From a virus, in the IMG/VR virus record IMGVR_UViG_3300031951_014982, positions 1 through 28,409 of that record: a stretch of 28,409 nt of DNA. One strand, 5' to 3'. This document shows positions 3,068-16,034 of this stretch, piece after piece. Below the pieces are notes generated by a model that saw nothing but the letters and a program-made list of their open reading frames with translations, ran no database searches and was not told where the DNA came from. The translations under genes and the position numbers were made by a program. How positions within the stretch are numbered: the stretch's first letter is position 1; every line of letters starts with the position of its first letter.

Positions 3068-3593
3068 GACGGGTTGCTACCGGTGCACCGGGCAAGAGCG
3101 GTTCGAGGGCGCCATTTGTGACGGCTGCGGGTCGGTCGCCGACGGGTACGGCGGGTTTGATGAGCCAGGGACGAGGCTGTCGGTCGGCGAGCCGAGGTGG
3201 CTCGTCTGGACGTGCGATGGGTACGACCCGTGGAACGATCTTGGCGATGCGCTCAACCGATTTGATGCCGCCGTCGATGAGATGGATTCCGGTTCGGAAC
3301 CTCCCGCGCTCTGGGTCGCGTACCCGCTGATGCTCCACGCGCTCCACCCCGACGTCGACGAGGGCGCCGTTGCGGTGTCTCAGTCGGTGGTGGAGTACGC
3401 CGATCCGTTCGCCGCCCTCACCGCCGAGCGCGACGATGCGCTGGCCCGGGTCGCCATGCTGGAGGCCGCGAGGAGCGCCGATCGGGCGATGCTGTGTCGC
3501 ATCCTCGGCGTCGAGTCCGACGCGTCGATCTCGGTGCTTCTGGAGCAGGTCGAGACGCTGCTTGGCTGGCGCGTCGAGCGAGGCGAGCCATGA
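3060..3593 (+). CDS. Hypothetical protein with an N-terminal zinc ribbon, 177 residues
   Basis: The ATG at 3060 overlaps the previous gene by 8 nt and follows GGAGGTGC, a good ribosome site. Residues 7-24 contain C-x-x-C ... C-x-x-C, a likely zinc ribbon. The middle (about 45-105) is rich in Trp and acidic residues. Residues about 118-175 form a helical, probably coiled-coil end. The plan of Cys pairs plus a coiled coil resembles its upstream neighbour, so these may be parts of one regulatory or scaffold set. The family is not recognised. Confidence 0.75.
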   Translation: MGETGCYRCTGQERFEGAICDGCGSVADGYGGFDEPGTRLSVGEPRWLVWTCDGYDPWNDLGDALNRFDAAVDEMDSGSEPPALWVAYPLMLHALHPDVDEGAVAVSQSVVEYADPFAALTAERDDALARVAMLEAARSADRAMLCRILGVESDASISVLLEQVETLLGWRVERGEP

Positions 3594-3934
3594 GCCGGCG
3601 GGCGGTCCCGACGCGGCCGGGCTGGTGGTGGGTCGGAACCTTCGATGGAGACAGGGTCTTTGACCTGAGCGTCGTTGAGGTGTGCCGCTTCGACGGCGGG
3701 CTGCGCGCACGATTCAACGGAGACTGGTTCGAGTTCGAGCAAGTTACCAGAGCTTGGCACGGCACAAGAGACTGGATCGAGCCCGTCGCCAATCCTGAGA
3801 CGCTCGCCGCCCTCCGCGCCGAGGTCGCGAGCCTTCAGGCCAGGATCTCCGACTTCGAGAAGTACACCGAGATCATGTGCCCCGACTGCGGCGCGCCGAC
3901 CGATGGCCTGCCCGACGGGTGGCCGGCCTCCTGA
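3590..3934 (+). CDS. Hypothetical protein with a C-terminal Cys pair, 114 residues
   Basis: The ATG at 3590 overlaps the previous stop (ATGA). The N-terminal half has a run of Trp and alternating strands (P-G-W-W-W-V-G-x-F-D-G-D), like a small beta-barrel. A helix spans about residues 70-95, and the tail has C-P-D-C-G near residue 100. Proteins of this kind are common near phage replication genes, but no function is known to me. This is the last gene of the coupled run; the large stem-loop at 3936-4009 begins immediately after its TGA. Confidence 0.75.
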   Translation: MSRRAVPTRPGWWWVGTFDGDRVFDLSVVEVCRFDGGLRARFNGDWFEFEQVTRAWHGTRDWIEPVANPETLAALRAEVASLQARISDFEKYTEIMCPDCGAPTDGLPDGWPAS

Positions 3935-3935
3935 C

Positions 3936-4009
3936 GCTGTTTCGTTCCGCGGCCCGCCGGCACCACAAGCGCGAGAGCCGGCCGCCTTGTGGTGGCGGAA
4001 CGAGACAGC
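3936..4009 (+). ncRNA. Large imperfect stem-loop, candidate structured RNA or terminator
   Basis: The outer arms GCTGTTTCGTTCCGC (3936-3950) and GCGGAACGAGACAGC (3995-4009) form 15 consecutive RNA pairs, one of them G-U. A 10-nt bulge (3951-3960) follows on the 5' side. Then a perfect 9-bp inner stem pairs CACCACAAG (3961-3969) with CTTGTGGTG (3986-3994), closed by a 16-nt loop. The bulge and the loop both contain GGCC/CCGG blocks that could pair with each other. No T-run follows. The structure fills most of the gap between the coupled small genes and the helicase gene. Confidence 0.6.
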
Positions 4010-4018
4010 CGGCCGCGC

Positions 4019-4038
4019 GGCTACACCTCGCCGGGAGG
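4019..4038 (+). promoter_or_regulatory. Gene-start module: GGCTACA plus ACCTCGCCGGGAGG
   Basis: GGCTACA (4019-4025) overlaps by one base a reverse copy of the near-palindrome. In that copy CCTC can pair with GAGG, placing the Shine-Dalgarno GGGAGG in the 3' arm. The ATG is 4 nt after the module. Confidence 0.6.
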
Positions 4039-4042
4039 GCCG

Positions 4043-5626
4043 ATGCTGGTCAAGATCGGCGCGATGCTGCGCGTCTACGGCGCGTCCGCTCGGATGCGGA
4101 CCGAGATCGAGAGTTGGTGGATCCCCGACGCGACCGCTCACGCCGTCCAGCGTCGGGCGATCCGACGCGGCGCGCGCGACAGCGGAGACGTCCCCAAGCA
4201 CATCCTGGCCGTCTCGGACGGTGACGCGCTCGTCCTCCACCGCGGCCTGACCTCCAGGCTGATGCAGGTCGTTGACCACCTCGGCGAGACGGTGCGCTGG
4301 GTGCCGGAGGTGTTCGAGCATCCCGAGCCGGTCATCCTGCCGCCGTCCCTGCGACAGCCCCGGCCGTACCAGACCGACGCGATCGGCCGGATGCTCACCC
4401 GGAAGCAGGGGCTGATCGTTCTGCCGTGTGGCGGCGGGAAGACCTTCACCGGCGCGCTCGCGATGGCGAAGATCGGCCAACCGGCCCTCGTCACCGCGCC
4501 CACGTCCGACATCGCCGACCAATGGCGCGCGGCCGTCGAAGCCGTCGGGCTGACGGTCGTCCCCTGGCGGCGGGACGCGCCTCCTCTCCCCGGCGAGGTG
4601 GCCGTCTCCGTCGAGGACAGCGTGAAGCCGACCGATCCCGCTCTCCAGCGCGTCGGGGTGCTCGTCGTCGACGAGGCGCATCGGGCGGCCGCCGCGACCA
4701 TGCGGGCGATCGTCTCTGCCTGCCCCGCTCGGTTCCGCTGGGGTCTGACGGCCACGCCAGAGCGCGCGGACGGCTGGGGGCCGCTGCTGCCGGTGCTGTT
4801 CGGCGGCATTCTGATCCAGGTGACGCCGGCCGAGCTTGTTGCTCAGGGCTTCGTCATGGCCCCGAAGATCGCGGCCGTCTCTACCGGCTGGGCGCCGATC
4901 CCCGAGCGACACCGGATCTGGACCGTCACCTGCCCGGGGTGCAAGGCGACAAGAGAGATCGTCGGGGCCGAGCTCGTCCAGGGCTGGACCTGCCCGGGCA
5001 CCCGGAAGCGCGGGAAGTGCGGCCGCGTGTTCACCGAGGCCGACCGGCTCGATCCCAAGAGCGCACGCCCCGGAGAGTGGTCGTGGTCGGCCGTGGTGTC
5101 GGGCGTCGCCGACGACGAGAACCGCAACCAGCTGATCCGGCTTCTGGCCGATCGGCTCGCCAACGCCGGCCGGCGCGTCCTGGTGCTCGTCCCGCGCGTC
5201 GACCTCGCCAAGCGGCTCGCAAGGCAGATCGGGCAGGCCGGCGTCAAGGCTGAGTCGGTGACCGGCGACGCGTCGTCCGCGGCCCGCGCGGAGCCTCTGG
5301 ACCGCCTGCGCTCTGGTGAGACGAGGGTGATCATCGCCACGCAACTCGCCGACGAGGGGCTCGACGTGCCGGAGATCGACGCGGTGATCAGCGCCTCGCC
5401 GGGGAAGGCCGGCGGGAAGGCCGTCCAGCGGGCGGGCCGGGCGACGCGGGCGGTGGACGGGAAGCCGTCTCCGATCATCCTCGATCTGGTCGATGCCGGC
5501 GACCTGATGGGCCGACACTGGGGAGCCAGGCGGGCGGCCTACGTCGACGCGTGGGGGCCGTCGTGCCTGGTGTCGGCGTCGCCGCTGTCGGTGGCCGACG
5601 TCCTCAAGCTGGTCGGCGGCGCCTGA
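4043..5626 (+). CDS. Superfamily 2 DNA helicase with an inserted zinc site
   Basis: This 527-residue protein has the SF2 helicase motifs in order: Q-motif-like RPYQ (107-110), Walker A LPCGGGKT (127-134), DEAH (210-213), TATP (236-239), a motif V region (about 431-445) and QRAGRATRA (462-470). It resembles the XPB/UvsW/RadD-type helicases that remodel branched DNA. Cys pairs at 297/300 and 317/326 form an inserted zinc site between the two RecA-like lobes. I chose ATG 4043 because of the GGGAGG site and gene-start module; in-frame codons upstream fall in the stem-loop. It opens the replication and recombination block and probably drives fork remodelling or strand exchange. Confidence 0.9.
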   Translation: MLVKIGAMLRVYGASARMRTEIESWWIPDATAHAVQRRAIRRGARDSGDVPKHILAVSDGDALVLHRGLTSRLMQVVDHLGETVRWVPEVFEHPEPVILPPSLRQPRPYQTDAIGRMLTRKQGLIVLPCGGGKTFTGALAMAKIGQPALVTAPTSDIADQWRAAVEAVGLTVVPWRRDAPPLPGEVAVSVEDSVKPTDPALQRVGVLVVDEAHRAAAATMRAIVSACPARFRWGLTATPERADGWGPLLPVLFGGILIQVTPAELVAQGFVMAPKIAAVSTGWAPIPERHRIWTVTCPGCKATREIVGAELVQGWTCPGTRKRGKCGRVFTEADRLDPKSARPGEWSWSAVVSGVADDENRNQLIRLLADRLANAGRRVLVLVPRVDLAKRLARQIGQAGVKAESVTGDASSAARAEPLDRLRSGETRVIIATQLADEGLDVPEIDAVISASPGKAGGKAVQRAGRATRAVDGKPSPIILDLVDAGDLMGRHWGARRAAYVDAWGPSCLVSASPLSVADVLKLVGGA

Positions 5627-5634
5627 GTGTCGGC

Positions 5635-5656
5635 CGCTACACCTCGGCCGGAGGTG
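5635..5656 (+). promoter_or_regulatory. Gene-start module with a perfect Shine-Dalgarno hairpin
   Basis: CGCTACA (5635-5641) is followed by CACCTC (5640-5645), a GGCCG loop and GAGGTG (5651-5656). This perfect 6-bp stem has a 3' arm that is the ribosome site for the ATG at 5661. Confidence 0.6.
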
Positions 5657-5660
5657 TGGC

Positions 5661-7196
5661 ATGGCCCGCCAGAAACGAAACCTCGAGGTCCGGGCGCACC
5701 GGTACGAGGGAGAGGTGATCCCAGGGCTGCCGGCCAACGGTCGGGCGGTCGTGGTCAGCAACAGTGAGCTGTCCACCCTGGAGTGTCCGCACAAGTGGTG
5801 GTTGTCCCGCGCCAACGGCCTCCGGCCAGAGCGGACGGCGATGGTGTTGTCCTGGGGGACCGGCCTGCACGCGGTCGTTGAGGACATCAACCGGTTCGCG
5901 ATGTACCACGACGGCCACGACTACCCGACGCAGGCGCTCGACACCTGCTGGCGGTGCGTGGGGACGGGTAGCGTCTCGGAGATCGTCGACCCACTCGGCA
6001 ACATCGCGCCTCGGCAGGAAACCTGCCCGCTGTGCAGCGGGGTCGGCTGGGGCGCGCTGCGTCGGGTCACCGAGGGCTGGCTGGCCGGCCTGGAGTCGGA
6101 GAACCCGTCGCACACCCGCGACGACGTCGACGACATGACCCTGCGTCTCCAGCGGGCGGTGCACGGCTACCTCGTGCGCTGGAACGGGCGGCCCGTGGAC
6201 ACGATGCGGGTGGTGGCCGTTGAGCGGCCTTTCGCGCGGGCCATCGTCGACCCCGCGACCGGCCGGCCCTACCGTCCGTCCATCGACGTCGCCCCGACGG
6301 ATGACGGGTGGGCGCTCGCCTCAACCCTCCCCGGCGTGGTCCATCAGGACGTGCAGCGCGTCCGCTGGCCGTGGTTCGCGCTGATCAAGCCGGACGCCGT
6401 CCTGGTCGAGCGGCGCGGGGGCGCGCTCTGGACCATCGACACGAAGTCGGCGGCCGACACCGGAAAGTTCGCCAAGCGGTTCGCGCTCGATCCGCAGCTC
6501 CCGCTCTACAGCTGGGTGCTGTCGGCGCACCTGTCGGCGCTCGGAGCCAGCCGGATCGGCGGGGTCGCCTACGACGTGGTGAGCTCCGCGCTCCAACGCG
6601 ATCCCGACGAACTGAAGCCGGAGATCCCGGCCGTCGCTGACATGAAGGCGATGGCGGCCGAGCGCGGGATCGACGTCAAGGGGCTGTTGAAGGACGATCT
6701 CGTTCGCGTCCTGGGGATCAACCCTAAACCGAAGCTATCCCTGAAGCGGGCGATCACCCCGACGTGGCGCTTCCGGGCGGCGATGGAGCGCCTCGGGATC
6801 TCCGGCATGGAGTACGAGGACCACCTGATGGACTTGGAGGCGACGGTAGACCGTCGGCTCTATCGCCGCGACTGGCACGTCTACTCGGACGAATCGATGG
6901 ACCGGGTGAAGGCCGAGACGTTCGCCCGGTGTCGGCGGTCCTACGAGATGCACAAGCGGGCGGTGTTGGTCCAGCAGGGCAACGCCGACCTGCACGTCGA
7001 GTTCCCGCGGACGCCGGTCTGCCTGTCGCCGGGCAAGTCGTGCGCGCTCGAGGCGGCCTGCACGATGGGTCAGGACGCGCCGGGGTTCCGCCGGGTGCCG
7101 GTGCTGGTGTGGCGCGAGACGGCTCCGGCCGTGTCGGCGGCTACAGCGGATCACGCTGACGACGTCGCCGACGATGGCGACGGGCTTGGCTGGTAG
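5661..7196 (+). CDS. PD-(D/E)XK nuclease of the Cas4/RecB-like type with iron-sulfur cysteines
   Basis: This 511-residue protein has the RecB-family nuclease signature: His70 in G-T-G-L-H, Asp245 in K-P-D-A-V, Asp260-x-Lys262 in the I-D-T-K-S motif, and Gln279 in D-P-Q-L-P-L-Y. Cys42 lies far upstream of a C-terminal trio (Cys454, Cys461, Cys467), the arrangement that holds a 4Fe-4S cluster in Cas4 and AddB-type enzymes. A further zinc-knuckle insertion has C-x-x-C at 96/99 and 122/125. It would resect DNA ends for recombination beside the helicase and the Sak4-like ATPase. The acidic C-terminal tail ends in Gly-Leu-Gly-Trp. A GGCTACA at 7136-7142 lies within its last codons, 65 nt before the next gene. 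Confidence 0.88.
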   Translation: MARQKRNLEVRAHRYEGEVIPGLPANGRAVVVSNSELSTLECPHKWWLSRANGLRPERTAMVLSWGTGLHAVVEDINRFAMYHDGHDYPTQALDTCWRCVGTGSVSEIVDPLGNIAPRQETCPLCSGVGWGALRRVTEGWLAGLESENPSHTRDDVDDMTLRLQRAVHGYLVRWNGRPVDTMRVVAVERPFARAIVDPATGRPYRPSIDVAPTDDGWALASTLPGVVHQDVQRVRWPWFALIKPDAVLVERRGGALWTIDTKSAADTGKFAKRFALDPQLPLYSWVLSAHLSALGASRIGGVAYDVVSSALQRDPDELKPEIPAVADMKAMAAERGIDVKGLLKDDLVRVLGINPKPKLSLKRAITPTWRFRAAMERLGISGMEYEDHLMDLEATVDRRLYRRDWHVYSDESMDRVKAETFARCRRSYEMHKRAVLVQQGNADLHVEFPRTPVCLSPGKSCALEAACTMGQDAPGFRRVPVLVWRETAPAVSAATADHADDVADDGDGLGW

Positions 7197-13252: not shown

Positions 13253-13263
13253 TCCTCGCCGGC

Positions 13264-13287
13264 GGCTACACCCTCGCCTGAGGAGGT
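13264..13287 (+). promoter_or_regulatory. Gene-start module GGCTACA plus Shine-Dalgarno hairpin
   Basis: GGCTACA at 13264-13270 is followed by CCTC-GCCT-GAGG and then AGGAGGT. The ATG is at 13295, 24 nt after the element. Confidence 0.6.
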
Positions 13288-13294
13288 AGCCGCC

Positions 13295-15987: not shown

Positions 15988-16034
15988 CTCCGGCGAGGTG
16001 CCCGTGTTCGCGCGGCTACACCTCGCCGAGGAGG
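15988..16034 (+). promoter_or_regulatory. Composite start region: near-palindrome, GGCTACA, Shine-Dalgarno hairpin
   Basis: CTCCGGCGAGGT (15988-15999) lies 14 nt before GGCTACA (16014-16020). That is followed by ACCTCGCCGAGGAGG (16020-16034), in which CTC can pair with GAG. The ATG is at 16041. This is the clearest composite of both dispersed elements. Confidence 0.6.

Follow-up and report, generated by a model that had tools for sequence, protein, structure and literature searches.

The window, meaning the whole stretch of 28,409 nucleotides that was analysed, derives from an uncultivated tailed phage with roughly 70% G+C and a terminase large subunit of the gpA family. On its + strand, a small ORF of 114 aa (3590-3934), having coding-like codon usage and no PHROG, Pfam or phage match, is followed by a non-coding gap of 108 nt and then by the gene of an SF2 DNA helicase (ResIII/Helicase_C; 4043-5626), recognized by PHROG_16 (4e-65), PF04851 and PF00271. 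This helicase gene is the first of a replication/recombination block, where a PD-(D/E)XK exonuclease, a Sak4-like recombinase, a single-strand binding protein and a primase/helicase come after it, all of them encoded on the + strand. The gap is occupied by a stem-loop (3936-4009), which begins 1 nt after the stop codon of the small ORF and ends 33 nt before the helicase ATG at 4043. Regarding the coding potential of the gap, codon usage gives no coding signal in any of the six frames, while both flanking ORFs score as coding, thus ruling out a protein-coding reading. An alternative helicase start, GTG at 3989 inside the stem, is possible, being less likely than the ATG at 4043 with its GGGAGGG.

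Structure and rarity of the stem-loop

The element has exact boundaries at 3936 and 4009 and consists of 74 nt forming two nested stems on the + strand. The outer stem is formed by the 5' arm GCTGTTTCGTTCCGC (3936-3950) and the 3' arm GCGGAACGAGACAGC (3995-4009), with 15 pairs, one of them U-G (T3941-G4004), and its arms are separated by a 44-nt spacing that encloses the second stem. This inner stem possesses nine perfect pairs between CACCACAAG (3961-3969) and CTTGTGGTG (3986-3994), being preceded by a bulge of 10 nt, GGCCCGCCGG (3951-3960), and closed by a terminal loop of 16 nt, CGCGAGAGCCGGCCGC (3970-3985). The geometry proposed from the sequence-only reading is therefore exact in its 15 outer and nine inner pairs, in the single G-U and in the sizes of bulge and loop, and both stems were also reported independently by a repeat finder (I15 and I22).

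As seen by RNA folding, the 74-nt RNA reaches -45.6 kcal/mol, with z = -5.3 against 1000 dinucleotide shuffles and z = -2.8 when the flanks are included, and the outer pairs keep a probability of at least 0.95 even within a context of 200 nt. The bare structure, as first described, amounts to -36.9 kcal/mol, 8.7 worse than the minimum, since in the minimum-energy fold the loop gains three to four pairs and the bulge a short mini-stem (2-3 bp, p about 0.5). Thus, the bulge and the loop are not simply open, as had been supposed, and both are predicted to pair further. The stem-loop was also taken to be the strongest RNA structure found, which does not hold by every measure: its energy ranks in the top ~0.5% among 80-nt windows and its z about third among 709 sampled windows, and a hairpin at 13261-13294 has a stronger z. 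Another long gap (1241-1413) is rich in inverted repeats (I9 and I10), with a predicted -89.8 kcal/mol over 173 nt.

In the 28.4 kb, this is the sole stem that has 15 or more pairs, no more than one of them non-Watson-Crick, and a loop not exceeding 50 nt. Comparable outer stems appear at a mean of 0.25 per window in 60 dinucleotide-Markov shuffles, so the outer stem alone is only mildly surprising. The joint architecture, an outer stem of 15 pairs with a perfect inner stem of nine, was found in none of 522 shuffled windows. The structure is real and is unlikely to have arisen by chance, although it was chosen post hoc as the best of the window.

The GGCC/CCGG words shared by the bulge and the loop had been regarded as a possible pairing between them. 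Their complementarity extends to 5 nt at maximum, and among random pairs of 10-mers and 16-mers from the window, 40% share a complement of 4 nt and 12% one of 5 nt. In addition, GCCGGC occurs 108 times in the whole window against 39 expected, a 2.8-fold over-representation, and the words are a genome-wide background rather than a special feature of this site. A bulge-loop pseudoknot, lying within the background of random pairs and of the GCCGGC excess, was rejected. The proposal of a DNA hairpin used in replication fails to find compositional support, as an AT-rich stretch is lacking and the skew does not clearly switch at 4 kb, and a replication origin at this position was also rejected for lack of a compositional sign.

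Search for relatives

The IMG/VR collection was queried with the helicase, exonuclease, primase and MazG proteins. The search recovered a single further contig of this phage, with 7,023 bases and 100% identity over nearly its whole length; it begins inside the exonuclease gene and is therefore without the hairpin. The remaining homologues in IMG/VR are distant, with at most 54% identity (the best helicase has 33% over most of its length and MazG about 50%), and show no synteny around the gap. Among 12 distant phage loci examined, none carries a comparable stem upstream of the helicase, and one possesses an unrelated AT-rich stem there. No diverged homologue of the region usable for covariation was found in IMG/VR or in the phage, plasmid and genome collections. 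Moreover, exact and degenerate patterns of the hairpin gave no match in IMG/VR, phage nucleotide searches were empty or insignificant, plasmid matches were short with E > 0.05, and no family of Rfam 15 scored above its gathering score, the low-score matches being rejected as noise.

When 85,000 genomes of bacteria and archaea were scanned with a degenerate pattern of the outer stem, three palindromes from three phyla with the same 12-nt outer core appeared, in Planctomycetota (L090), Mycobacterium (L091) and Spirosoma (L092). Each is single-copy, with a different interior and unrelated neighbours; as relatives of the phage element they were rejected, and they are treated as look-alikes rather than as proven chance. 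In the Mycobacterium MAG contig (L091:100-500), the palindrome is centred in a longer inverted duplication of the end of an S53-type protease gene, and within samples of 301 genomes of its family and 396 of its phylum no other genome has it.

These results bear on the reading of the stem-loop as a relic or a chance palindrome, left by an old insertion or inverted duplication and devoid of present function. Its single copy and the absence of demonstrable conservation are consistent with such an origin. Arguing against it are an architecture too infrequent among shuffled windows (0/522), the exact fit of the stem-loop within a gap in a compact genome, and the failure of searches to match it with any repeated or mobile element, which together make this explanation quite improbable.

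Transcription signals and the start-associated motif

Canonical intrinsic terminators combine a stable G+C-rich stem-loop with a U-rich tract directly after it, and of these the locus has the stem-loop only. The 12 nt after the stem contain no T on the + strand and one on the - strand, and the terminator scan did not call the stem-loop, leaving no canonical + strand terminator there. A simple intrinsic terminator is therefore disfavoured by the absence of a T-run on both strands, in agreement with the sequence-only reading, where such a terminator was not seen as a full explanation. Regarding promoters, no sigma70-type site was found near the stem, although phage promoters may differ, and the 33 nt between the stem and the helicase hold no promoter-like site. 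Since neither a sigma70-like promoter nearby nor a canonical + strand terminator was found, and the flanking genes all lie on the + strand, the placement of the stem-loop between two operons is a possibility and nothing firmer.

A terminator of another kind deserves consideration, namely a U-less ('I-shaped') terminator or attenuator that ends the transcript of the small ORF, by itself or helped by Rho or some other factor of the host. The stem and loop are strong, and the position directly behind the upstream stop codon is the usual one for a terminator, but the T-free sequence downstream, the silent terminator scan and the lack of a promoter-like site up to the helicase start all argue against it. 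The mycobacterial polymerase reportedly needs a U-tract, to judge by the title of Czyz et al. 2014, which also speaks against termination here. Single hairpins without a U-trail ('I-shape') have already been classed as terminators in bacteria (PMC8355165), giving this reading a precedent. The phage element is similar to them in being a strong hairpin right after a stop codon with no U-tract; unlike them, it has the next same-strand gene only 33 nt away, and termination would be doubtful without a U-tract. Overall, a U-less terminator seems rather unlikely, while keeping a real share of the probability as the foremost competitor of the explanation preferred below.

The inverted repeat could also act at the DNA level, bound by a dimeric regulator of the replication block. 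Such an operator would agree with a long, nearly perfect dyad immediately ahead of a block of genes, and with the GC content of the arms (60% and 56%), which is below that of the genome (about 70%). However, the 44-nt spacing of the outer arms with a nested second dyad is unusual for one operator, and the outer-arm sequences are present once in the window, whereas phage operators often have their sequence repeated elsewhere. Considering also the lack of a promoter-like match nearby, with the same reservation on phage promoters, an operator is improbable.

The end of the stem at 4009 is separated by 7 nt from a downstream copy of the phage's start-associated motif, GCGGCTACACC..CGCCGGGAGGG (4017-4039, + strand), which includes the Shine-Dalgarno sequence GGGAGGG at 4033-4039. 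The word GCTACA occurs 15 times on the + strand and once on the - strand, where the expectation is about 1.5 on each; of the 15 + strand sites, 13 fall 8-60 nt before a start. The motif itself, GCGGCTACACC..CCGGAGG, has 13 copies upstream of about half the genes, all on the + strand (237, 745, 1389, 4020, 5636, 8339, 13265, 16015, 17944, 18860, 22087, 22440 and 27859), and the alignment of the copies before a start gives GCGGCTACACC-CG-CCGG--G. In IMG/VR, the pattern of this motif has one chance match, within a reading frame of an unrelated phage.

Two genes, starting at 5661 and 13295, have strong hairpins (z -3.2 and -4.5, respectively) in which the motif is paired with their Shine-Dalgarno. 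The first one (5636-5660, GCTACACCTC / GAGGTGTGGC) lies over the Shine-Dalgarno of the exonuclease gene, while the second one (13261-13294, 15-nt arms GGCGGCTACACCCTC / GAGGAGGTAGCCGCC) masks the Shine-Dalgarno before a helicase ATG and reaches z -6.4 in its 80-nt window. Strong pairing is absent at most other genes, so a hairpin is not a general property of the motif. A second recurring word, CCGGCGAGGT, is present at 1366, 9395, 15990, 25559 and 27828, mostly in intergenic gaps; it is the reverse complement of the 3' half of the start motif, and its copy at 15990 is able to form pairs with the start motif at 16015.

A related arrangement has been described in cluster K mycobacteriophages, where an inverted repeat accompanies a start-associated motif (SAS/ESAS) whose function is also unproven (PMC3203893, PMC12699233). 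The ESAS are 17-bp inverted repeats with a consensus shared at several sites and a spacer mostly of 4-13 bp (PMC3203893). In common with them, the phage stem is an inverted repeat located directly upstream of a recurring translation-start motif in the non-structural part of the genome, and by analogy, the start-motif arrangement may work like the cluster K SAS. The sequences are nevertheless unrelated, the motif GCGGCTACACC..GGAGG having no relation to the SAS sequence GGGATAGGAGCCC. An extended start-associated element of this kind, tuning helicase expression, would explain the same order of parts as in SAS/ESAS and the repeat ending 7 nt before the motif (PMC3203893); however, unlike the recurring ESAS with their short spacers, the repeat here occurs once, with a 44-nt spacer and a second stem. 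Because its arms are single-copy and its spacer is 44 nt, the stem-loop is not a member of the ESAS family, and even a looser ESAS-like role has a low probability.

A broader proposal is that the stem-loop and the motif belong to an undescribed system of control at the translation or mRNA level in an unknown phage lineage, with GCGGCTACACC at about half of the genes and an added RNA structure at a few. This may be regarded as a speculative suggestion, with a small chance of being correct.

Proposed role and meaning

The explanation considered best, held tentatively and at somewhat less than even confidence, is that of a cis-acting RNA stem-loop, intercistronic or in a leader, which processes or stabilizes the mRNA ahead of the helicase gene. 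An RNA-level role is slightly favoured because the imperfect pair is G-U on the + strand and A-C on the - strand, and the + strand folds better (-45.6 against -43.4 kcal/mol). The rarity of the architecture and its place in a non-coding gap right ahead of the replication block also speak for this explanation; its single copy in a single genome and the lack of a comparable stem at the 12 distant loci speak against it. What the analysis establishes is the structure with its significance, its non-coding position, its same-strand neighbours and the missing T-run; its transcription, its folding in vivo and its effect on mRNA processing or stability are inferred. In this view, the + strand transcript would fold into a long double-stranded rod between two parts of the mRNA, one for the small upstream ORFs and one for the replication genes; the rod may serve as a cut site for an RNase III-like enzyme or as a barrier to exonucleases, and the two parts would then be expressed and decay separately. 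The interpretation in the sequence-only reading is partly supported: its view of the site as an RNA structure holds, and its more specific proposals, a small RNA, an RNase III site, an attenuator and a replication hairpin, found no confirmation.

Hairpins processed by RNase III lie between phage genes, as in the early region of T7. The stem-loop is similar to those T7 hairpins in being a long near-perfect intercistronic stem between co-directional genes; unlike them, it is known from its sequence alone, and it has no sequence relation to them. The predicted duplex has 15 plus 8-9 pairs with the bulge between them, to be compared with the approximately two turns of double-stranded RNA expected for RNase III.

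Long intercistronic stem-loops are a usual means by which phages decouple genes on one transcript. The stem-loop is a new example of an already known type of feature, and it is probably an ordinary element of mRNA control or processing, seen in one unconfirmed instance. It marks the start of the replication block in an uncultivated GC-rich phage without close relatives. If it is a U-less terminator or a processing site, it would be a clear test case for how high-GC transcripts can be ended or cut without U-tracts.
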